44,029 bases of DNA from a virus. Below the pieces are notes generated by a model. The model was not told where the DNA came from. It did not search any database and saw nothing but the letters and a program-made list of their open reading frames with translations. The translations under genes were made by a program, and so were the position numbers. This document shows, in pieces, positions 4,445-26,103 of this stretch. The number at the start of each line of letters is the position of its first letter. The stretch's first letter is position 1. The DNA lies in the IMG/VR virus record IMGVR_UViG_3300046804_004121, positions 1 to 44,029 of that record, one strand, 5' to 3'.

Positions 4445-4519
4445 GGGGGCAGTAGTGGGCTACGGCGTTGCCTTGCAAGCATCGTGTCTAGAAGGGTTCG
4501 ATTCCCTCGGCTTCCACCA
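4445..4519 (+). tRNA. tRNA-Ala(TGC), copy 1
   Basis: Acceptor GGGGGCA/GGCTTCC with G-T pairs and one terminal mismatch, anticodon loop CTTGCAA, T arm around TTCGATT, encoded CCA. A second, more regular Ala(TGC) tRNA lies at 16340. Confidence 0.8.
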
Positions 4520-4524
4520 ATTAC

Positions 4525-4599
4525 GCTCTGTAAGCATTGCTGGCGATGCAGGCGCCTTGTAAGCGTCAGAATGGGGTTCGATTCCTCAACGGAGCACCA
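4525..4599 (+). tRNA. tRNA-Thr(TGT), copy 1
   Basis: Acceptor GCTCTGT/ACGGAGC, anticodon arm GGCGC-CTTGTAA-GCGTC, encoded CCA. Confidence 0.9.
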
Positions 4600-4604
4600 A
4601 ACAT

Positions 4605-4680
4605 GCCGTGGTAGTTCTCTGGGCAGAGCACCGGATTGTCTATCCGATTTAGGCGGGTTCGATTCCCGTCCACGGCGCCA
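4605..4680 (+). tRNA. tRNA-Asp(GTC), copy 2
   Basis: Acceptor GCCGTGG/CCACGGC, anticodon loop TTGTCTA, discriminator G, encoded CCA. Confidence 0.9.
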
Positions 4681-4686
4681 AACAAA

Positions 4687-4765
4687 CTGGGTGTATTGTC
4701 AGCCTGGCCAGACGGCTCGCCTTGGAAGTGAGAGGACGCAGGTTCGAATCCTGCCACCCAGACCA
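4687..4765 (+). tRNA. tRNA-Pro(TGG), copy 1
   Basis: Acceptor CTGGGTG/CACCCAG, anticodon arm CTCGC-CTTGGAA-GTGAG, T arm GCAGG-TTCGAAT-CCTGC, encoded CCA. The CCA is followed at once by a NACAGCAA element. Confidence 0.9.
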
Positions 4766-4766
4766 G

Positions 4767-4836
4767 TTTAAGGATAGTAACAGCAAAAATTGTATACATT
4801 AGACTTCTAATCTAAACCGTAAAAATTCTATCCTGA
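4767..4836 (+). ncRNA. NACAGCAA stem-closed RNA, element 1 (Y-like)
   Basis: AGGATAG (4771-4777) pairs with CTATCCT (4828-4834). The left strand is followed directly by TAACAGCAA, and the interior holds a hairpin TTAGA-CTTCTAA-TCTAA. It begins at the CCA end of tRNA-Pro with the junction CCAGTTTAAGGAT, shared with elements 2 and 3. The constant closing helix with a variable interior resembles Y RNAs; binding to the Ro60-like protein at 19273 is inference. Confidence 0.6.
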
Positions 4837-4840
4837 TAGG

Positions 4841-4869
4841 TTGACAACTACCTTAAAAGGTTGTAAACT
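4841..4869 (+). promoter_or_regulatory. sigma70-type promoter
   Basis: TTGACA at 4841-4846, 17-base spacer, TAAACT at 4864-4869 (four of six -10 matches). It would drive the two Lys tRNAs and following RNAs. Confidence 0.6.
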
Positions 4870-4978
4870 ACAAAAACTTTAACAAAGGACAATGACATGA
4901 AACGAGGTAAACTCTAGTGTCATCCTAGTACTCCGTATGGTCTAGGGTGGCACGTAAAAGAAAACATAGTACGAACAC
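4870..4978 (+). other. leader region before tRNA-Lys, no gene
   Basis: This stretch holds a hairpin ATGACA/TGTCAT (4892-4897 with 4918-4923) and CCTAG/TCTAGG pairing. A six-codon frame, ATG at 4897 to TAG at 4917, is too short to call. I see no tRNA or protein gene. Confidence 0.4.
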
Positions 4979-5053
4979 CCTTGCTAAACTTTGCTGGCGA
5001 AGTACCCGGCTCTTACCCGGGAAAACACAGTTCGATTCTGTGAGCAAGGACCA
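4979..5053 (+). tRNA. tRNA-Lys(CTT)
   Basis: Acceptor CCTTGCT/AGCAAGG, anticodon arm CCCGG-CTCTTAC-CCGGG, T arm CACAG-TTCGATT-CTGTG, encoded CCA. Confidence 0.92.
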
Positions 5054-5057
5054 CTAC

Positions 5058-5133
5058 GGGAGTATAGCTCAGTCGGTAGAGCAGTAGACTTTTAATCTAT
5101 TGGTCCGGGGTTCGAATCCCCGTGCTCCTACCA
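5058..5133 (+). tRNA. tRNA-Lys(TTT)
   Basis: Acceptor GGGAGTA/TGCTCCT, D arm GCTC...GAGC, anticodon loop CTTTTAA, encoded CCA. Confidence 0.94.
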
Positions 5134-5134
5134 T

Positions 5135-5328
5135 AAGAATGATAATTGAATGTAGATGCTGAGAAATCCATTGTGGGCACACAATGAGAAAAGGTACAGC
5201 GAGTCTTGTACGTGAAAGAAGACCCTAAGTATCAGCTAGAACTACGTACCCCTATTCCAGCCGGCCTTGCATAAGAAGGGACGAATTGGAGCCGAATAGA
5301 TGGGGCGGCTCGTTCAGTTATCATCCTT
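5135..5328 (+). ncRNA. structured RNA closed by a 14-base helix
   Basis: Bases 5135-5148 pair with 5315-5328 over 14 positions with one mismatch. The interior holds hairpins CATTGTG/CACAATG near 5172, GTACA/TGTAC near 5195 and GAGCCG/CGGCTC near 5290. It fills the space between tRNA-Lys(TTT) and tRNA-Met exactly and contains no protein frame. It lacks the NACAGCAA box and fits no RNA family I can name. Confidence 0.55.
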
Positions 5329-5569: not shown

Positions 5570-5633
5570 TTTAAGGATGCTAACAGCAACTTTTATTTTT
5601 TATTGTCAAAAAAAGAAAAAATGCATCCTGTTA
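5570..5633 (+). ncRNA. NACAGCAA stem-closed RNA, element 2 (Y-like)
   Basis: AGGATGC (5574-5580) pairs with GCATCCT (5623-5629), TAACAGCAA follows the left strand, and the interior is an A/T hairpin. The junction after the tRNA-Ile CCA is the same as in element 1. The helix bases differ from element 1 (GC instead of AG at its inner end) yet remain paired, a compensatory change that supports a real structure. Confidence 0.6.
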
Positions 5634-6088: not shown

Positions 6089-6208
6089 TTTAGGGATACT
6101 CACAGCAAATCTATCCAAACGATAGGTAGTTGGTTCGATTCCAACTTTTTCCGCTAGGGAAAAATAGCTCATTAGGTAGAGCATTCGTCAAGAATAGTAT
6201 CCCGTTTT
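6089..6208 (+). ncRNA. NACAGCAA stem-closed RNA, element 3, with permuted tRNA module (YrlA-like)
   Basis: GGGATACT (6093-6100) pairs with AGTATCCC (6196-6203), followed on the left by CACAGCAA. Inside, in order, are a hairpin CTATC/GATAG, a T arm GTTGG-TTCGATT-CCAAC, an acceptor-like helix TTTTTCC/GGAAAAA capped by a five-base loop (6153-6157), and a D arm GCTC-ATTAGGTA-GAGC. This is a tRNA body opened at the anticodon and closed at the acceptor, the design known for the tRNA-mimic module of bacterial YrlA Y RNAs. It directly follows tRNA-Val with the shared junction sequence. It could instead be a permuted tRNA gene, but no sensible anticodon loop can be built across the opening. Confidence 0.65.
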
Positions 6209-7069: not shown

Positions 7070-7537
7070 TTATTCGTAAACTAATTTATTATACCATCTA
7101 ATAGAGTCTGGATGAAACAGGTCAGTCATGTTTTCGTAATTGAGCCTTAACTCTGAATTATTTTGATTAACCCATATAAAACAAAACATTGCAATACTTC
7201 TTTCGTTCCAGTTAAAAGCACTTTCAGCAGTGTCAAATCTGTACATATCATTATTTAGAAATTCATCCATGATTAACTTTTTAGATGATACTACAGGTAT
7301 ACTTTCTAAAGATGTAGCACCAAATACTACTACTGGTAATTTGTCTTCAGACGACAATAACGAAAGTGCCGCTTCTTTAAGCTGTTGGCTTTTAGGAAAT
7401 ACTCCATCAGCAGTTACAACAATAGTGTCAGTCCAATGAGGATATATTTTATCTAAAAAAGTTTGTGCTGATTTTTCAGAGCGTAATATTGTAATAGAAT
7501 TAAATTGAACGCTTTCCGAGTGCCATTTGTACTTCAT
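7070..7537 (-). CDS. unknown protein, 155 residues
   Basis: No family recognised. The protein begins MKYKWHSESVQFNSI and has a central TIVVTADGVFPKSQQL and PVVVFGATSLESIPVV, two short hydrophobic strands that suggest an alpha/beta fold. It overlaps the 3' end of the asparagine-synthetase-like gene by 38 bases, so the two are co-transcribed and perhaps functionally linked. No signal peptide or membrane segment is apparent. Confidence 0.7.
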   Translation of the reverse strand: MKYKWHSESVQFNSITILRSEKSAQTFLDKIYPHWTDTIVVTADGVFPKSQQLKEAALSLLSSEDKLPVVVFGATSLESIPVVSSKKLIMDEFLNNDMYRFDTAESAFNWNERSIAMFCFIWVNQNNSELRLNYENMTDLFHPDSIRWYNKLVYE

Positions 7538-8972
7538 TGTATATTCCTTTTATACTTTCAAATTTAGTGTCATTGCCTATGATTCCAACACCAGTTTTGG
7601 TCCAGTTCCACGGCCAGTCTACCATATAGTCTTTAACTAATGTATAACTTAGACTTCGACTTTTGCCGCCTGCGCCCAACTTGTAATTTCCAGGAATACG
7701 CCAGACATAATCAAATAGAAAACCATCGGCATAAGGATGGGCGAATTGTAAATCAAAAAATTGATTGTAATTGTATACCCTGTGACTAGCTTTGTAAAAA
7801 TATTGCATTAATTCAATCTTGTTAACGAGATCATCGGTCTCGATCTTATTCCAAGTTTCAATAAACCAATTTTTGACAGAGTCGTATGCATCTCTCACAG
7901 ACGGTAACAAAAAAATAGACGAAAAAGAATTATCTTTAGCAACAAAGTTAAATCTGCTACAATCGCAATTTAAAAAAAGATTGGCAATTTCTTCAACATC
8001 ACAATTTGGGTTCTGAATTATAAATTTTAAAAGAACTTTGCCAAATCGAGAACCAAAAATCTGATCGCCTACTTCGCCAGTAAAGATAATTTTTTTAGAA
8101 TGGTTTAATTGTCTTATTGCTTGATATTTTAATAAAATATGTGGCTCTCTCCAAAATGCTGAGTAAGTTCTGTGATATGCAGACTTATAGCCGATGTCAT
8201 CGATTTGTAAAATTTTTTGCGGATTAAATTCTTCAACATCTAACCATTCTACAAAAATATCATAATGGTTTGCAATTTTTTGAATATACGGAGCTTCGCT
8301 TTGATATTCTCGTTGGCCTTTTAAACTAATAAAAGAACATTGCTGTTCAATTCCCAATTTTCTTAAATAGCCAAAAATTGTATTGCTGTCAGTTCCACTA
8401 CTTAGGAGTAAACCAAATGGTTGTTGTGTATTTTCTTTGATGTAATTTTCAATTATACTTGACAGTTCTTCCAATTCAAAATTGCCAGTTGGTCTATAGT
8501 AAATGTTATTGTATTGAACTATTTTTGTAGTACCGTCAGGTGTTTTTTCTAAATAACATCCGGCTGGAATTTTTTTAATTTCTTTTTGAATTGTTTGATC
8601 GCCAACTGAACCTCCCCAAAATAATTGAGTTTGTCTCAAAATATTTTCATTAACTGTTAACGGAAGTTCTTTTTTGCGTATAGCTTCTTGAATATTTAAA
8701 AAAATATGATCGCAAAAATGTTCACTGTAGAACATTTGATAATTTGGTAAATGATCAACAGCAACTACTATCCTATTGTTATCATGAAAATAAAATGCAA
8801 AGTTGCCTTTGATATTGTTTGGAAATTTACCGTCACGTAAGATTTCTAATATAAATTGATGGTCAAGATTAGTTTTACCTTTTAGGTAGAATTTATATTC
8901 TCCAGTGCTATAATCTCGAAATTGAGGATAGCTATTTAAAAATTGCACGGTTGAATCTCCACATCGACCCAA
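7500..8972 (-). CDS. asparagine synthetase-like protein (PP-loop amidotransferase family)
   Basis: A protein of up to 490 residues. Residues 56-75 (GNFAFYFHDNNRIVVAVDH) match the N-terminal glutaminase-like domain of AsnB, but the frame has no Cys at position 2, so ammonia release from glutamine is doubtful. The ATP pyrophosphatase motif LLSSGTDSN is at residues 189-197 and FTGEVGDQIFG follows around residue 300, as in asparagine synthetase. Family members activate a carboxylate with ATP for amide bond formation. The start is uncertain: ATG at 8972 overlaps the upstream gene by 37 bases, and a GTG at 8948 would shorten the overlap. Its neighbours are oxygenase-like proteins, which hints at modification of a peptide or metabolite. 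Confidence 0.8.
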   Translation of the reverse strand: MGRCGDSTVQFLNSYPQFRDYSTGEYKFYLKGKTNLDHQFILEILRDGKFPNNIKGNFAFYFHDNNRIVVAVDHLPNYQMFYSEHFCDHIFLNIQEAIRKKELPLTVNENILRQTQLFWGGSVGDQTIQKEIKKIPAGCYLEKTPDGTTKIVQYNNIYYRPTGNFELEELSSIIENYIKENTQQPFGLLLSSGTDSNTIFGYLRKLGIEQQCSFISLKGQREYQSEAPYIQKIANHYDIFVEWLDVEEFNPQKILQIDDIGYKSAYHRTYSAFWREPHILLKYQAIRQLNHSKKIIFTGEVGDQIFGSRFGKVLLKFIIQNPNCDVEEIANLFLNCDCSRFNFVAKDNSFSSIFLLPSVRDAYDSVKNWFIETWNKIETDDLVNKIELMQYFYKASHRVYNYNQFFDLQFAHPYADGFLFDYVWRIPGNYKLGAGGKSRSLSYTLVKDYMVDWPWNWTKTGVGIIGNDTKFESIKGIYNEVQMALGKRSI

Positions 8973-10694: not shown

Positions 10695-11453
10695 ATGGAA
10701 AAAATATTTGAGTTAACATACCCGACTGCTAGATTTAACAGACATTTGCTACTGCTTTCTTTTATAGTTTTTCTATTCATTGGAACTTTAGATCAATGGT
10801 TAATTGCATTAAGCGTTTATCTGTTTAAAGGTTTGCTAGGTACGGCGGTTATCCATAGAGGGCTCACCCATAAAGCATTTAAAATGCATAAATGGGTTGA
10901 GTATCCTTTGGCTGCAATCAGTCTGGCAGGAACAAGTGCATCGGTTATTGGTTGGGTAGCTATACACAGAGAACATCATCGATACTCTGATTTAGAAAAA
11001 GACCCACATAGTCCAAATCATATGCCTCGATATAATGTACAATTTATGGTTTTTAAGAAACCAGTCAATTCATTATATGCAGCGGACTTACTTAAAATAA
11101 AATTTTACAGAGACTTACACCAGTATCATTGGCTATTAACTATTGTACCTATAGTAATACTATATTTTATTGATCCGTTGGCGCCTTTATACGCCTGGCT
11201 AGTTCCAAATTTTATTCAAAGCCAGGCTGGCACTACTGTGAATCATTTAAATCATAGTAAATTTGGTTATAGAAATTTCAATACAAAGGATCAAAGTTAT
11301 AATAACTGGATCACTGGTATAGTATGTTTAGGAGAAGGTTGGCACAACAATCATCATAACGACCCAGGTAATGCAAACTTTGGAGTTAAGTGGTGGGAGT
11401 TTGATTTAGGATACCAATTTACTAAGTTAATTTCAAAACGAAGTAGTGAGTAA
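10695..11453 (+). CDS. membrane fatty acid desaturase, copy 1
   Basis: A 252-residue membrane protein with the three di-iron histidine boxes of acyl desaturases: HRGLTH (54-59), HREHH (91-95) and HNNHH (217-221), plus EKDPHSP after box two as in delta-9 desaturases. Hydrophobic stretches flank the boxes. Such enzymes insert a double bond into acyl-CoA or lipid acyl chains using oxygen. It follows the Bug gene by eight bases and overlaps the convergent sulfotransferase gene by 21 bases. Two further desaturases (13590, 23025) are in the window. Confidence 0.92.
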   Translation: MEKIFELTYPTARFNRHLLLLSFIVFLFIGTLDQWLIALSVYLFKGLLGTAVIHRGLTHKAFKMHKWVEYPLAAISLAGTSASVIGWVAIHREHHRYSDLEKDPHSPNHMPRYNVQFMVFKKPVNSLYAADLLKIKFYRDLHQYHWLLTIVPIVILYFIDPLAPLYAWLVPNFIQSQAGTTVNHLNHSKFGYRNFNTKDQSYNNWITGIVCLGEGWHNNHHNDPGNANFGVKWWEFDLGYQFTKLISKRSSE

Positions 11454-13589: not shown

Positions 13590-14344
13590 TTGATTACAGA
13601 CAAATTTACATTTCATCAAAAGTTGATGGCTATGTTATCTATTCACTTTATGCTGTTCTTTTATGCAATGTTTATGCATTGGAGTTGGTCATTTTTGCTA
13701 ATAGCTTGGTTACTTGGTAAATTAATTGGTTATCTCGGTAACGAAATAGGTATGCATAGACTATGGAGTCATAAGAGTTTCCAAACTGTAAGATGGAAAG
13801 AATGTCTATTACATTTATGTGCAGTTCCATTGTTAGCAGGATCTAGTATAGCCTATGCTGGTATTCATAGACAGCATCATGCATTTAGTGATACAGAAAA
13901 AGATCCTCACCAAACTAATTCAGCATTAAAGACGTTGTTTTATTTTAGAAATAAAGATGTAAATATTTCGCCTAAGTTAGTTTCAGATCTTATCAAATGC
14001 CCTTTGCATAAATGGTTACATGTAAATTACTTTAAAATTAATTTTGTTTTTCTTATTGTTTGTTTATTAATTTTAGGACCTGTGTATACAGGATGGTTCG
14101 TCAGCTCTGTCATTACTTACAATTTTATTGTAATAGGTCTTGTAAATATTTACGGACATAGACCAGCATACGGCAAAAGGAATTTTGATACTAATGATAG
14201 AAGTACAAATAATTTTTGGTTACAGGCATTAACATGGAACCATGGACTGCACAATAATCATCATAAGTATCCAGCAAGTTATAGAATGAATGTTAATCCA
14301 AAGGAATTTGATTTTCCAGGTTGGATAATTGAAAAGTTTTTTAA

Positions 14345-14354
<10 letters not shown>
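13590..14354 (+). CDS. membrane fatty acid desaturase, copy 2
   Basis: A 254-residue membrane protein with histidine boxes HRLWSH (near residue 53), HRQHH (near 90) and HNNHH (near 225), and the DTEKDPHQ segment after box two. Several hydrophobic stretches surround them. The likely start is a TTG at 13590 with AAGG upstream; a later ATG is possible. The stop codon lies inside tRNA-Gly(GCC), which begins ten bases before the gene ends. Same reaction class as copies 1 and 3 but clearly diverged from them. Confidence 0.9.
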
Positions 14355-18579: not shown

Positions 18580-18777
18580 ATGCTAAAACAAAAAGCAAAA
18601 CCCGTTCGACTTCGAAACGTGTTCAATAATCAAGAAGTAATTTGCGACGATTTGAGCAACGTTCGGACTATCGACGGGCAGGACTTCGTCGAAGTCCATT
18701 TTGAAAACCAGTCAAGGAAATTTTGGCTTAACCGAGCACCTTTAGAAAAGGTAAAAGAAAAGTCCAAAAAGAGTTGA
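18580..18777 (+). CDS. small unknown basic protein, 65 residues
   Basis: A 65-residue protein starting MLKQKAKPVRLRNVFNNQE after an AAGGAG ribosome site seven bases upstream; a GTG one codon earlier is possible. It has alternating hydrophobic residues (FVEVHFENQSRKFWLN) that suggest a small beta barrel, and a Lys-rich tail. No family recognised. It follows tRNA-fMet directly and its stop overlaps the -35 box of the next promoter. Confidence 0.75.
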   Translation: MLKQKAKPVRLRNVFNNQEVICDDLSNVRTIDGQDFVEVHFENQSRKFWLNRAPLEKVKEKSKKS

Positions 18778-18802
18778 CTATACGATAGAAATATCGTACA
18801 AT
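18774..18802 (+). promoter_or_regulatory. sigma70-type promoter of the Y-like RNA/Ro60 locus
   Basis: TTGACT at 18774-18779, 17-base spacer, TACAAT at 18797-18802. Transcription would start about ten bases before RNA element 4 and run through elements 5 and 6 into the Ro60-like gene. Confidence 0.8.
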
Positions 18803-18818
18803 AGATGTATTGTAAGAT

Positions 18819-18936
18819 TTTAGGTTAGTTACAGCAAACTTCACGGTTAATAGCCGTATCTGATGGACCGGGGTAACCCAGTCGAGCATGTTCGCTCTAA
18901 CATGTTAAAAATAATAGGGCACCAACTAACCTGTTG
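18819..18936 (+). ncRNA. NACAGCAA stem-closed RNA, element 4 (Y-like)
   Basis: AGGTTAGTT (18822-18830) pairs with AACTAACCT (18924-18932). TTACAGCAA overlaps the end of the left strand. The interior holds ACGG/CCGT, GGG-GTAA-CCC and AGCATGTT/AACATGTT hairpins. It is the first of three tandem elements upstream of the Ro60-like gene and starts close to the predicted transcription start. Confidence 0.65.
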
Positions 18937-18938
18937 AT

Positions 18939-19198
18939 TTCTAGGATAGATACAGCAACCTTATACTATAACTACTGCACTTAATGTAGTAGACGGTGGC
19001 CCGCAAGGCTAGGAACACTGGAGGGGAAACTCTGTGAAGGTGCCCTATCTGTAGCAATACAGACGCTAACGGAACTAACGACTAGGGAAAGACCTATATG
19101 TTCATGTGCAGAACTCACATGATAGGCTTGGGGGACTGAACCGATATACTGGGGATGGGGCCAAGCAGAAAATAAAAACCGTTCCGGCTATCCTGTTA
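18939..19198 (+). ncRNA. NACAGCAA stem-closed RNA, element 5 (Y-like, long)
   Basis: AGGATAG (18943-18949) pairs with CTATCCT (19188-19194), followed on the left by ATACAGCAA. The closing helix is identical to element 1, but the interior is about 240 bases long and richly paired. It includes ACTAC/GTAGT and a long hairpin CCTAT...CATGTG/CACATG...ATAGG. A constant end with a large variable module is the pattern expected for Y RNAs. Interior function unknown. Confidence 0.65.
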
Positions 19199-19200
19199 AA

Positions 19201-19260
19201 CATAGAATGTTAACAGCAATTTTAAATTTCAAAGCATAACTGAAACAAAATACATTCTGA
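19201..19260 (+). ncRNA. NACAGCAA stem-closed RNA, element 6, abutting the Ro60-like start
   Basis: AGAATGT (19204-19210) pairs with ACATTCT (19252-19258), followed on the left by TAACAGCAA. The interior is a simple hairpin TTTCA/TGAAA. The element ends right at the AAGGAG ribosome site of the Ro60-like gene, so protein binding here could block translation. Confidence 0.65.
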
Positions 19261-19272
19261 AAGGAGACACAC

Positions 19273-20682
19273 ATGAACGCATTTGTTCAAGCAGTTCAAA
19301 ATCAAGAAGCCCGTACTGCCAATGGCATGAAGGCTCGAAAGTCTACAGCCAAGGCTACTGTAGATCTGTTCTACTCTATCGGTGCAAGCCGTGGTAAGAA
19401 CATCACCGCAGAATTCACTGCCGCATACGTTGAAAACGCGGATGTGGCACTACGCATCGCACAATGGGCACGTGATGTCCGTGGTGGTGCCGGTGAACGT
19501 CAGCTTTTCCGTGACATCCTTGTTCACTTGGAAAAGCGTGACCCTGATGCCGCTTTGGCTCTTCTAAAGAAGATTCCCGAAGTGGGTCGTTGGGATGACA
19601 TTTTTGTCTTCTCTACTCCTGCTCTAAAGAGCGCCGCATACACTATGTTGGGTGATGCGCTACGTGCAGGAAACGGTCTTGCCGCAAAGTGGACTCCACG
19701 TAAGGGTAAGATCGCCGCCGAAGTTCGTGCCTTCTATGGCATGAGCCCTAAGCAATACCGTAAGAGCCTTGTTGCTCTTACCAAGGTTGTTGAAACACAA
19801 ATGTGTGCCAACGACTGGGATAACATCAACTTTAGTCATGTTCCTTCTGTGGCTGCTCGCAACTACAAGAAGGCATTCAACCGTCACACACCTGCATTTG
19901 CAGAGTATGTGGCTAAGTTGGTCAAGGGGGATAAGACTGTTAAGGTTAACGCCGATGCAATCTACCCACATGACGTACTAAAGGGCATCGCACATGCCTA
20001 CAAGGACTTTGACAAGACCGAAAAGGATCATGTCAAGGCACAGTGGGACGCTCTGCCAAACTACGTTGGGGATGCTAGCATCCTTCCTATCGTCGACGTT
20101 AGCGGGTCTATGACTTGCCCTGTTGGTGGTAACGGTGCAACTCGTTGCATTGACGTAGCAGTTGGTCTAGGTTTGTACCTAGCAGATAAGAACAAGGGCG
20201 TGTTCAAGGACACATTCTTAACCTTCTCTGATAAGCCTGAACTTGTGACCCTAAAGGGTGACATCCTTCAGAAGCTCGACCAAATGGTTAAGAGCCACTG
20301 GGAAATGAGCACTAACCTGCATGCCGCTATGAACAAGATTCTTAGCGTTGCGGTTAAGGGCAATGTCCCAACTAGCGACATGCCAAAGATGTTGCTGATC
20401 TTGTCAGACATGCAGTTCAACCAATGCGCTCGTTTCGACGACAGCGCAATGGAAATGATCGAACGCAAGTTTGCTGAAGCGGGTTACACCGTTCCACAAG
20501 TTGTGTTTTGGAACTTGAACAGTAGCGGAAACGTTCCTGTCAAGGCTGACAAGTCGGGTGCGGCTTTGGTTAGTGGATTTAGTCCAAGTATCATGAAGGC
20601 TCTGCTTTCAGCTGATTTGGATCAGTTCACTCCAGAAGGTATCATGATGAAGACTGTAATGGTTCCTCGTTATGATCTGTAA
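19273..20682 (+). CDS. Ro60/TROVE-like (DUF2828-like) ring protein with vWA domain
   Basis: A 469-residue protein. Residues 1-265 are alpha-helical and repeat-like, with RDVRGGAGERQLFRDIL (68-84) and KKIPEVGRWDDIF (99-111), segments I associate with DUF2828/TROVE-type proteins. Residues 270-469 form a von Willebrand A domain with the metal site DVSGS (275-279), STN near 347 and LILSDMQ near 384. HEAT-like repeats joined to vWA are the architecture of Ro60, which binds misfolded RNAs in its ring and Y RNAs on its outer face. A strong AAGGAG site and codons enriched in AAG, AAC and GGT suggest high expression, unlike the AT-rich neighbours. Three stem-closed RNAs directly upstream are candidate partners. 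Exact family (TROVE or DUF2828) needs a profile search. Confidence 0.8.
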   Translation: MNAFVQAVQNQEARTANGMKARKSTAKATVDLFYSIGASRGKNITAEFTAAYVENADVALRIAQWARDVRGGAGERQLFRDILVHLEKRDPDAALALLKKIPEVGRWDDIFVFSTPALKSAAYTMLGDALRAGNGLAAKWTPRKGKIAAEVRAFYGMSPKQYRKSLVALTKVVETQMCANDWDNINFSHVPSVAARNYKKAFNRHTPAFAEYVAKLVKGDKTVKVNADAIYPHDVLKGIAHAYKDFDKTEKDHVKAQWDALPNYVGDASILPIVDVSGSMTCPVGGNGATRCIDVAVGLGLYLADKNKGVFKDTFLTFSDKPELVTLKGDILQKLDQMVKSHWEMSTNLHAAMNKILSVAVKGNVPTSDMPKMLLILSDMQFNQCARFDDSAMEMIERKFAEAGYTVPQVVFWNLNSSGNVPVKADKSGAALVSGFSPSIMKALLSADLDQFTPEGIMMKTVMVPRYDL

Positions 20683-20710
20683 ACTGTTGTAGAAATACAA
20701 CACAGTTTGA

Positions 20711-20736
20711 ATAGGGCCGTTGGGCCCTATTTTTTT
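20711..20736 (+). terminator. intrinsic terminator after Ro60-like gene
   Basis: ATAGGGCC and GGGCCCTAT form the stem, followed by seven T. A weaker hairpin (AACTGTTGT/ACAACACAGTT) precedes it. Confidence 0.9.
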
Positions 20737-23024: not shown

Positions 23025-23798
23025 ATGAAAAACTTCGGAAGACATTTTTGGCTAGTTATTTTACCATTCCATATTATTGGTTTAATTGGACTCTACTATG
23101 TATGGGAACACATTGTAGCATTAATGTTATTTTGGTTGTTTATTGGTGTTATTGGAAACGGTGTAGCAGCTCATAGATATTTTAGTCATGGGCAATTTGA
23201 AACTTATACACCAATTAAATGGATTTTAGGTTTTTTAGCTACATTAGGTGGTATTGGTCCAATTACTCATTGGAAAATTCAGCACACACTTCACCATGCC
23301 AGAGCCGATACCGATAAAGATCCTCACAGCCCTGTTTATCATAGTGCGTTTCATACTATGTATGGCTGGACTTTTATCCACGGAGACACACAATATCAAA
23401 AAGAATATTTTAAAGAACGTTTTGTAAAAAAGTTAATGATAAGAATGTTAAGAGATGATTTCTTTAGATTCTTCCATCATTACTATTATCAAATAATATT
23501 TGGATTTTGTGCGCTATTGATCTTAGTTGATCCAATTTACCTAACTTTATATTGTCTTGCATACTGTATTGATTTTCTCAAACTAGGATTAATCAATTAT
23601 GTGTGTCACAGATATGGGTATAGAAATCACGATACTAACGATAAAAGCACTAACAACGTTTGGTTAGGCTGGCTTGGTTTAGGGTTTGGGTGGCATAACA
23701 ATCACCATGCAAGTCCTAAAAAATTGATATTAAGCGAACGCTGGTGGGAACTAGATATAGAAGGTTTGATAGGTAAAGCGTTATCTAGAAAATTTTGA
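23025..23798 (+). CDS. membrane fatty acid desaturase, copy 3
   Basis: A 257-residue membrane protein with histidine boxes HRYFSH (near residue 48), HTLHH (near 87) and HNNHH (near 227) and the segment DTDKDPHSP. Hydrophobic segments at residues 8-45 and 150-180 fit a desaturase topology. No ribosome site is visible. It converges on the UbiB-like gene with an 18-base overlap. It is closer in layout to copy 1 than to copy 2. Confidence 0.92.
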   Translation: MKNFGRHFWLVILPFHIIGLIGLYYVWEHIVALMLFWLFIGVIGNGVAAHRYFSHGQFETYTPIKWILGFLATLGGIGPITHWKIQHTLHHARADTDKDPHSPVYHSAFHTMYGWTFIHGDTQYQKEYFKERFVKKLMIRMLRDDFFRFFHHYYYQIIFGFCALLILVDPIYLTLYCLAYCIDFLKLGLINYVCHRYGYRNHDTNDKSTNNVWLGWLGLGFGWHNNHHASPKKLILSERWWELDIEGLIGKALSRKF

Positions 23799-25031
23799 AA
23801 AGTGTTTTACAATAATTGGAATTAAAGATTTTATCACATCATTTGACGGTGCTAACGATTTAGAAAATCCGTCCACTGCAACTAAAGTTTTTATGAAAAG
23901 TATCATGTGGGCAGGGATATTTACATCGTAGACATTTAAAACATCGAGTAACTTAGATAGTATTCCTGCAATATCTAATTCTTTTGCAGATTTAACATTT
24001 AGTGTTAAAATCATTTTTTCTAAATCTGTTTCAATTCCTTCTAGATTAGAATCAGTCCAGCCGGATGATTTTATTAAATCTTTTATTGAACTATATTTTT
24101 TATTATAGATCATTACTAATAATCGAAGAATAGTTTCTCGGTCTTGTTTATTAATTTCTCCCATTATACCAAAGTCTAAATATATTCTCTTTCCCGAGTC
24201 ATCTATCCATACATTGCCCGGGTGCGGATCAGCATGATAAAATCCATAATAGAATGATTGAACAATAAAAGCCTCTAGACCCTGATTGAGCATTTTGACA
24301 ATATCTATATTCTTATTAATTAAATCTTGTTTTTGATCAATAGGGGTTCCATACATTCTTTCTAAAATTAATACATTTTTAGATGAATAAAAAACTTTTG
24401 GGATTTTAATAAAATCAAATTTTTGCATTTGTCTAGTAAATCTCTCAATGTTGTTTTTTTCAACATTAAGGTCTAGTTCTTTTTTAATACTCTGATGCAG
24501 TTCATTTATTATAACTGGTAATTTAACTTTTCTTAAACTTTTAATTAAATTTAATAATTCAGATGATTTTTTTAAAAATTTAAAATCTTCATCTATTATA
24601 TGATCAATATTAGGTTTAATTATTTTAATAGCAACTTCTGTGCCGTCATGTAATGTAGCAAAATATACTTGTGCAACACTGCCTACTGCTGCTGGATCAT
24701 TATCTATTTGTTTAAATTCTAAAGGTATAGACTCTATTAAGGGTTTAATTTGTTTGTAGTCAACAGGACTAACATTATCCTGAAGTAGTTTTAATTCATT
24801 GATAATTGAAGGGCCAAAGACATCTTGTCTAGTTGACATAAGCTGGCCTAGCTTAATAAAAACAGGTCCGCCTTCTTCTAGAGCTTTTCTAATTCTAAAA
24901 GGAAGGGGACCTGTAACTGGAGTAATTTTAAAAACAGATCTAAATAGTCCTAAATTTTTTAATATTTGATTTGGAATTAAATGTTCTAAACGATACTTAA
25001 GAAGTATCCTAAAATACTCAAGTACTCTCAA
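23781..25031 (-). CDS. ABC1/UbiB-family atypical kinase
   Basis: A 416-residue protein with PVFIKLGQLMSTR near residue 55 (the KxGQ motif special to the family), AAVGSVAQVYFA near residue 115 (Ala-rich loop), HADPHPGN near residue 265 and YLDFGIMGE near residue 280. UbiB/ABC1 proteins are ATPases or kinases associated with ubiquinone and lipid metabolism at membranes. The C terminus has a hydrophobic segment that may anchor it. It starts directly after the stop of the gene upstream on the minus strand. Its presence near desaturases suggests a membrane-lipid role. Confidence 0.9.
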   Translation of the reverse strand: MRVLEYFRILLKYRLEHLIPNQILKNLGLFRSVFKITPVTGPLPFRIRKALEEGGPVFIKLGQLMSTRQDVFGPSIINELKLLQDNVSPVDYKQIKPLIESIPLEFKQIDNDPAAVGSVAQVYFATLHDGTEVAIKIIKPNIDHIIDEDFKFLKKSSELLNLIKSLRKVKLPVIINELHQSIKKELDLNVEKNNIERFTRQMQKFDFIKIPKVFYSSKNVLILERMYGTPIDQKQDLINKNIDIVKMLNQGLEAFIVQSFYYGFYHADPHPGNVWIDDSGKRIYLDFGIMGEINKQDRETILRLLVMIYNKKYSSIKDLIKSSGWTDSNLEGIETDLEKMILTLNVKSAKELDIAGILSKLLDVLNVYDVNIPAHMILFIKTLVAVDGFSKSLAPSNDVIKSLIPIIVKHFSKFSR

Positions 25032-25497: not shown

Positions 25498-26103
25498 ATG
25501 GCTATCTACTACAGAAAATTAACCCCAAACGATAAAGATCAATTGATCGAATTATTTGAAAGCAATCCAACTGTCTACACAAAATTTACCGATAAAGATT
25601 TTCAAGAAAAATTTAAGAATATTCTTGCCAACGAGCTGTTAAATCCTCTTTGTTTTTTTCCTAGTATTTTTGTAAACGATAAACTGTACGTTACAATTTA
25701 CTTAAAAGAATCGCCTGAAGCTCCTAGCTGGATATGGGCACATCATATGCATCGAACTGCATCATTCACTACATTTGTACAACCCGAGTTTATTGATGCA
25801 GCTATGGAATTAGATACAGCAATTTACGATGAAATGGCTATTAAGAGAAAGTTAAATCGTTTTTACTTTGTTTTTCCTGTAGATGAAAAAACATCTACTA
25901 GAAGTATTGGATCCGTAGATAGAATTTATACCTTTATGAAAAAAGTTAGAAATTACGACTCAAATTTCTCTAAGTATGAAATATATACCGATTGCATAGT
26001 TGAAAAAAATACAATGCCAAGATACAATTATCAAAAAAAACTGATAGGCGATAGAACATGGCCATTTGATTTGGCCGTTAGGATTGGAATGTTAAAAGGC
26101 TAA
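25498..26103 (+). CDS. unknown protein, possibly GNAT-fold
   Basis: A 201-residue protein starting MAIYYRKLTPNDKDQLIELF, an opening typical of GNAT acetyltransferases, with strand-like KLYVTIYLKES and RFYFVFPVDE segments. The glycine-rich acetyl-CoA loop is not clearly present, so the assignment is weak. It converges on the gene at 26092 with a 12-base overlap. A longer start (GTG at 25471) is less likely. Confidence 0.6.
   Translation: MAIYYRKLTPNDKDQLIELFESNPTVYTKFTDKDFQEKFKNILANELLNPLCFFPSIFVNDKLYVTIYLKESPEAPSWIWAHHMHRTASFTTFVQPEFIDAAMELDTAIYDEMAIKRKLNRFYFVFPVDEKTSTRSIGSVDRIYTFMKKVRNYDSNFSKYEIYTDCIVEKNTMPRYNYQKKLIGDRTWPFDLAVRIGMLKG

Follow-up and report, generated by a model that had tools for sequence, protein, structure and literature searches.

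The locus and its Ro60-like protein

The DNA analysed here, referred to as the window, is a phage sequence of 44,029 nt (positions 1 to 44,029 of IMG/VR record IMGVR_UViG_3300046804_004121) that carries 35 tRNAs and, at 19273–20682 on the plus strand, a gene for a 469-residue protein of Ro60-like architecture. Six structured RNA elements, E1 to E6, accompany the gene, all on the plus strand: E1, E2 and E3 lie in tandem directly upstream of it, whereas E4, E5 and E6 lie in the tRNA array. We consider it probable that protein and RNAs together constitute a ribonucleoprotein (RNP) of the Ro–Y type, in which a Ro60-like ring of the DUF2828 family would be served by its own, distinct class of RNA. 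The three tandem RNAs are preceded by a sigma-70-like promoter (TTGACT-17-TACAAT; 18774–18802, plus strand; 10/12 consensus matches), E3 is directly followed by a Shine–Dalgarno sequence, AAAGGAG (19260–19266, plus strand), and a hairpin resembling an intrinsic terminator lies 3' of the gene (20709–20732, plus strand). The promoter-like and terminator-like signals thus bracket E1–E3 and the gene as a single unit, in agreement with the shared transcript predicted by a first-pass annotation, which had been made from the sequence alone; this placement is suggestive, as both signals are consensus matches of a kind that is frequent by chance, the promoter alone being no rarer than chance.

The protein matches the Pfam families DUF7788 (1.7e-49; 168.5 bits against a gathering score of 27.1) and DUF2828 (3e-28; 99.3 bits against 29), and PHROGs assigns it to an 'RNA-binding protein' family. 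The TROVE profile (PF05731), in contrast, gives no match at E ≤ 1, and the vWA_Ro60 profile reaches 15.4 bits, below its cut-off of 27.7; of the two families against which the annotation had proposed checking the protein, it is therefore DUF2828, and not TROVE, to which it belongs. An AlphaFold2 model built from an alignment containing 78 relatives has a predicted local distance difference test score (pLDDT) of 92 and a predicted template modelling score (pTM) of 0.91. When this model was used in a fold search of the Protein Data Bank (PDB), the top seven matches were all TROVE, Ro60 or Rsr structures (E 1e-8 to 2e-6) with both domains aligned, whereas the next match was to a von Willebrand factor A (vWA) domain only (E 5e-3). 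The TM-scores against the Ro60 structures are 0.47–0.65 across both domains, with probability 1.00, values that describe the overall fold of the predicted model. Because the best PDB matches are all members of the TROVE/Ro60/Rsr group over both domains, the predicted fold is Ro60-like even though the TROVE sequence profile is not matched, and the HEAT-like plus vWA architecture recognized in the first reading holds. So does its placing of the DVSGS sequence at residues 275–279: the metal ion-dependent adhesion site (MIDAS) residues Asp275, Ser277 and Ser279 are invariant in 78 sequences. At least 682 phage records carry a DUF2828 protein, including Felix O1-type, KVP40 and Listeria A511 phages.

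Six RNA elements with a constant end

The elements obey a common rule: a helix of 7–9 bp, the 5' strand of which is followed by one or two unpaired nucleotides and the sequence ACAGCAA, then a variable interior of 32–229 nt, the second strand and, usually, a G. E1 (18821–18933; 113 nt) is closed by TAGGTTAGT/ACTAACCTG, with ACAGCAA at 18831–18837, and is also found upstream of the gene in relatives. E2 (18942–19195; 254 nt) is closed by TAGGATAG/CTATCCTG, with ACAGCAA at 18952–18958; compared with its relatives, the interior is a conserved multibranched RNA, the internal helices of which covary in 28 of them, and it has no match in Rfam. E3 (19203–19259) is closed by TAGAATGT/ACATTCTG, with ACAGCAA at 19213–19219, and occupies the 5' untranslated region (UTR) of the gene, ending 13 nt before the start codon and immediately before AAAGGAG. 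The remaining elements each lie just 3' of a tRNA: E4 (4771–4834; AGGATAG/CTATCCT) after tRNA-Pro(TGG), E5 (5574–5629; AGGATGC/GCATCCT) after tRNA-Ile(GAT) and E6 (6093–6203; GGGATACT/AGTATCCC) after tRNA-Val(GAC), the last of these enclosing a circularly permuted, YrlA-like tRNA. E3, E4 and E5 are compact (56–64 nt) and score 43.7, 38.2 and 54.5 bits, respectively, with R1, a covariance model constructed from elements of many phages; E1, E2 and E6 are longer. The three tandem elements with their closing helices and the three further copies in the tRNA array had all been reported in the first-pass annotation and are borne out here, as is the constant sequence that follows the helix; the spacer, given there as always a single nucleotide, may be one or two.

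The window contains 20 copies of ACAGCAA where 7.6 would be expected, a count that none of 100 shuffled sequences reaches, and the combination of the exact motif, a helix of ≥7 bp starting with (T)AGG, AGA or GGG, and a G after the helix is confined to these six sites. Two other R1 matches in the window, at 8748–8821 and 25806–25870, lack both the AGG-type helix start and the 3' G and were judged to be chance matches.

The closing helix is conserved by compensatory change

The reality of the helix was assessed by a swap test, in which all near-gene motifs were taken with no helix required, near-duplicates were removed (n = 234) and the downstream sequences were exchanged between elements. With their own downstream sequence, 181 of the 234 motifs close a helix of ≥7 bp, compared with 27.2 (21–34) with swapped partners, and all four Watson–Crick pair types are present among the inner helix pairs. 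When 58 compact elements are aligned, 8/8 pairs change on both sides; the covariation score is 0.81, as against 0.27 after shuffling and no more than 0.18 when partners are slid. Of the two tests, the swap is the unbiased one, since the aligned elements had been picked for having a helix. The RNA class therefore exists, and compensatory changes maintain its helix. That the helix bases vary while remaining paired had been noted from the window's six copies; the covariance model proposed at the time, now built from many phages, finds covariation well beyond them.

The RNA class tracks the DUF2828 gene

Among 80 viral close relatives of the window, 72 have sequence upstream of the gene, and in all 72 there are elements directly upstream of it; a strict detector counts 265 elements in the orientation of the gene and 3 in the opposite one. 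A complete element lies in the UTR, 12–16 nt before the start codon, in 70 of the 72. This arrangement, with the Shine–Dalgarno sequence intervening between E3 and the start codon, is what might be expected were the elements only cis-acting signals for translation or processing, i.e. operators or processing hairpins and not separate partner RNAs. We regard this as improbable, given the positions that elements take up elsewhere. They lie upstream of the DUF2828 gene in Listeria phage A511, Aeromonas phage LAh_9, Campylobacter phage CP30A and Rhizobium phages, but downstream of it in mycobacteriophage DuncansLeg and Staphylococcus phage 6ec, and in the tRNA array in the Felix O1-type phage finno and Enterococcus phage H1. 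Similarly, counts of ACAGCAA on the gene and opposite strands within 500 nt upstream are 189/0 for window-like loci, 61/4 for bacteria and 28/0 for Listeria-like loci, whereas in KVP40-like loci it is the 500 nt downstream that are populated (84/1). Neither a downstream position nor one in a tRNA array far from the gene, as for E4–E6 or for Serratia phage BF, in which eight elements share one tRNA array (300500–307700) some 200 kb from the DUF2828 gene, suits a cis-acting signal, and nor does a structured interior, of which the permuted tRNA is an example.

A search of whole genomes of 16 named, diverse DUF2828 phages with R1 finds elements in 14; in one phage, Milchi, four R1 matches without the exact ACAGCAA lie among tRNAs ~3 kb beyond the gene. 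The hosts of phages possessing both the helix-plus-ACAGCAA RNAs and DUF2828 include Gram-negatives, Firmicutes, mycobacteria and cyanobacteria. For the bacterial genome scan, an alignment of 16 proteins proved too diverse and one of five proteins was used; elements are present upstream of chromosomal DUF2828 genes in Veillonella and Brachyspira, and also in Clostridia and Acholeplasma contigs. Across 28 whole Veillonellaceae genomes, R1 gives six strong matches (E < 1e-3), five of which fall just upstream of a DUF2828 gene. The sixth, in Veillonella denticariosi, is an intact element; the DUF2828 gene that it precedes is matched over residues 212–450 only and is apparently a remnant. DUF2828 is found in the five strong-match genomes and in one more, where upstream elements are visible by eye, one of them with a one-base variant of the motif; in the remaining 21 genomes R1 gives no strong match and two weak ones (E 0.004 and 0.0095). 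As three of the six genomes contributed to R1 and the others are close kin, this result speaks for the specificity of the model, both inside a genome and from one genome to another, more than for independent discovery.

Viral contigs were also scanned with a pattern that leaves the three inner bases of the helix unspecified. This AGAC pattern returned 31 records, and DUF2828 is present in 11 of the 12 with a full helix as against 1 of the 19 with a broken one. The exception, L329, lacks DUF2828 but has 21 tRNAs and, in the part that was read, three elements; as it is a phage fragment, its DUF2828 gene may fall beyond the ends. No match was obtained with a longer exact pattern. An element-rich fragment without the gene, together with the frequency of tRNA arrays in DUF2828 phages, could be taken to mean that the RNAs serve a different RNA-binding factor, of host or phage, and share with DUF2828 no more than a neighbourhood, the tRNA arrays of large phages. 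We find this distinctly improbable: Veillonella chromosomes retain one element only, placed immediately before DUF2828, Veillonellaceae without DUF2828 have no strong R1 match, and elements stand beside the gene even where there are no annotated tRNAs nearby, for example in Campylobacter phage CP30A. The RNA class tracks the DUF2828 gene across phages and bacteria, and the opposite outcome envisaged at the outset, copies mainly in genomes without a TROVE or DUF2828 gene, is not what the DUF2828 phages and the Veillonellaceae display.

E6 encloses a permuted tRNA

The fold of E6 (z-score −5.6) comprises, in order, the closing helix, a hairpin, a T arm, an acceptor-like stem with a short loop, a D arm and a hairpin. 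Fold and covariation together define the T arm (GTTGGTTCGATTCCAAC) at 6129–6145, the acceptor-like stem, which has a short closing loop and thus no free 3' end, at 6146–6164, and the D arm (GCTCATTAGGTAGAGC), preceded by a TA matching tRNA positions 8–9, at 6167–6182, all on the plus strand. This module is absent from E1–E5, and some 40 distinct elements elsewhere carry it; in 22 such elements, E6 included, 22 of 24 pairs covary, among them 7/7 in the acceptor. In a blind scan of 4227 Rfam families, E6 matches the full model of the bacterial Y RNA YrlA (RF02553) at 34.5 bits, with E-values of 1.8e-6 in 128 nt and 3.4e-5 in the 2.4-kb array. The gathering score of 69 is not reached by E6 or by the best match elsewhere (40.3 bits). 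Matches to YrlA also fall within elements of Sinorhizobium phage phiN3, DuncansLeg and Serratia phage BF.

Such a match might conceivably arise from debris, E6 and its like being tandem tRNAs or pseudo-tRNAs with a chance likeness to YrlA. Several low-scoring phage matches are indeed plain tandem tRNAs, and matches are found in 9 of 14 control genomes; for this reason we place weight on the enclosure of the module and on its covariation, not on the YrlA E-value. It is, nevertheless, very hard to credit debris as the explanation, as the acceptor halves pair across a short loop and covary, unlike those of unrelated neighbouring tRNAs, and the ordinary tRNAs of the 2.4-kb array give no YrlA match in the blind scan. 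Those YrlA matches outside ACAGCAA elements that were read (in Stenotrophomonas, Cronobacter, Aeromonas and Campylobacter phages, and a second match in DuncansLeg) were set aside as tandem tRNAs. Likewise, an automatic count of 85 permuted-tRNA modules outside elements was discounted, consisting mostly of tandem tRNAs, with some elements in which the motif differs by one base (GCAGCAA, ACAGCTA and CCAGCAA).

The basal stem of YrlA binds Rsr, the bacterial Ro60, while its tRNA-like domain serves as a tether for PNPase and undergoes modification by tRNA enzymes (PMC8394870). The resemblance to this system extends to both partners: Rsr, a TROVE protein, likewise combines a ring with a vWA fold, the protein and RNA genes are often adjacent, and YrlA too has a terminal stem joining its 5' and 3' ends, a feature supported here by the swap test and covariation, together with a permuted-tRNA effector module. 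The differences are that the window protein is of the DUF2828/DUF7788 type with no TROVE match, that the end of the RNA is ACAGCAA plus a short helix, and that there are several RNAs per genome, most of them without a tRNA mimic. The suggestion that these are a distinct class of Y RNA is strengthened by the mimic in E6; the roles put forward alongside it (RNA quality control, tRNA surveillance or the capture of RNA from the host) are conjectural, and so is binding of the RNAs to the protein.

It has also been proposed that the tRNA-like domain of YrlA inhibits an anticodon nuclease competitively (PMC7790460). By extension, the tRNA-like elements could themselves be decoys to which tRNA-cleaving host defences bind directly, with the protein only shielding the RNAs from decay, and the composition of the module, which has T, acceptor and D arms without an anticodon arm or free CCA end, lends itself to such a role. 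The anticodon loop is, however, the usual target of these enzymes and is precisely what is missing; moreover, most elements have no tRNA-like module. We therefore consider a decoy function unlikely.

Comparison with metazoan Y RNAs and Dictyostelium class I RNA

In metazoan Y RNAs, as in the elements, a constant end, which in metazoa is bound by the Ro60 ring, is combined with a variable loop. The metazoan-type Ro-binding sequence, which the first-pass annotation had found not to be evident, was likewise not seen on reading the elements, a comparison made by eye without a dedicated test, and the Rfam scans made returned no match to metazoan Y RNA.

A closer likeness is to class I RNA (RF01414), reported from dictyostelids alone, which is ~60 nt long and has a covarying stem that joins the ends, a conserved motif beside the 5' strand and a variable interior (PMC7919456). 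The compact elements display these same traits: a short covarying closing stem, a motif next to the 5' strand, which in the Rfam consensus of class I RNA (CCUUACAGCAA) also lies directly 3' of that strand, and a length of ~60 nt. Blind Rfam scans match E3 to RF01414 at 20.6 bits and E5 at 26.4 bits (E 0.041; 4227 families), and three Aeromonas elements match at 28–30 bits. Genome-wide, RF01414 matches with E ≤ 0.01 are found in 8 of the 16 DUF2828 phages, compared with none of 14 control genomes, and those that can be checked fall on elements, including that of Lak-A2, which is the best (33.7 bits, E 3e-5); no match reaches the gathering score of 41.5. Unlike the phage elements, class I RNAs have their own promoter element (DUSE) and a known RNA recognition motif (RRM) partner, Rnp1A. 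The likeness, seen on the RNA side and below gathering, may reflect either common origin or convergence. It is about as likely as not that DUF2828 proteins and helix-plus-ACAGCAA RNAs form one widespread Ro–Y-like RNP family across phages, bacteria and eukaryotes, in which the class I RNAs, held to be unique to social amoebae, would be the Y RNAs of a DUF2828 protein, acquired or inherited from that family.

A model for the proposed RNP

By analogy with the bacterial particle, the constant end, i.e. the closing helix with the unpaired ACAGCAA, would most likely be the docking site on the DUF2828 ring, and the variable interior may gate the ring or tether partners, as in bacterial Y RNAs. Where the interior mimics a tRNA, it could bring a nuclease or enzymes that handle tRNA to the ring, or act as a competitor of host defences that cut tRNA, and the particle may survey, repair or degrade damaged tRNA-like RNA during infection, a role that fits the placement of elements in tRNA arrays. 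The copy abutting the Shine–Dalgarno sequence suggests that the protein most likely represses its own translation when free RNA partners are scarce; such feedback control fits the completeness and narrow spacing of the UTR copy in the relatives. LeBron gp53, which is annotated as a Ro-like protein, is toxic on overproduction (PMC13148394), and toxicity of this kind would make feedback useful.

Several observations weigh against the proposed Ro–Y-type RNP. Near-gene elements were detected in only 40 of 73 Listeria-like and 59 of 73 KVP40-like loci; distal arrays account for some of the undetected cases (Serratia phage BF and contig G123 from a metagenome-assembled genome), but not for all. The AAGGC and AAGAC pattern scans of viral contigs gave 82 loci, 13 of which have a helix of at least 7 bp compared with 11–12 expected from two random pairs, and almost none has DUF2828; these matches are at chance level and were rejected, and the bare pattern is therefore not specific. 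To these must be added the low-scoring YrlA matches from tandem tRNAs and control genomes described above.

Other features of the window

Between tRNAs at 5135–5325 there is a structured-looking stretch of ~190 nt, the ends of which pair (TGATAATTG/CAGTTATCA) and which is without ACAGCAA; it is possibly another non-coding RNA. The window also encodes three fatty acid desaturases (10695–11453, 13590–14354 and 23025–23798) and, on the minus strand, an ABC1 kinase (23781–25031) and an asparagine synthase (7500–8972), a metabolic gene load that is unusual for a phage window with 35 tRNAs. A possible function as a defence system was checked with PADLOC, which gave no match. In Listeria phage A511, a match to ROOL RNA (4507–5058; 87.5 bits against a gathering score of 99.1; E 3.5e-16) lies ~1 kb upstream of the DUF2828 gene.

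Prior knowledge and significance

Some mycobacteriophage proteins of the DUF2828 family already bear the annotation 'Ro-like RNA binding protein', jumbo phages are known to encode TROVE proteins (PMC7824862), and phages with YrlA have been reported earlier, according to PMC7765460. In the literature consulted, which did not extend to the main Y RNA papers and leaves priority uncertain, we found no paper linking DUF2828 to an RNA class or describing its RNA partners. The naming of a partner RNA class makes the function of DUF2828 proteins testable in laboratory phages. The analysis also sets the Ro-like ring apart from TROVE as a sequence family, and shows that RNAs of two different families of Ro-like protein have in common the tRNA-mimic effector module of bacterial Y RNA. 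For the abundant and unexplained class I RNAs of Dictyostelium, the comparison offers both a candidate protein class and a candidate origin.

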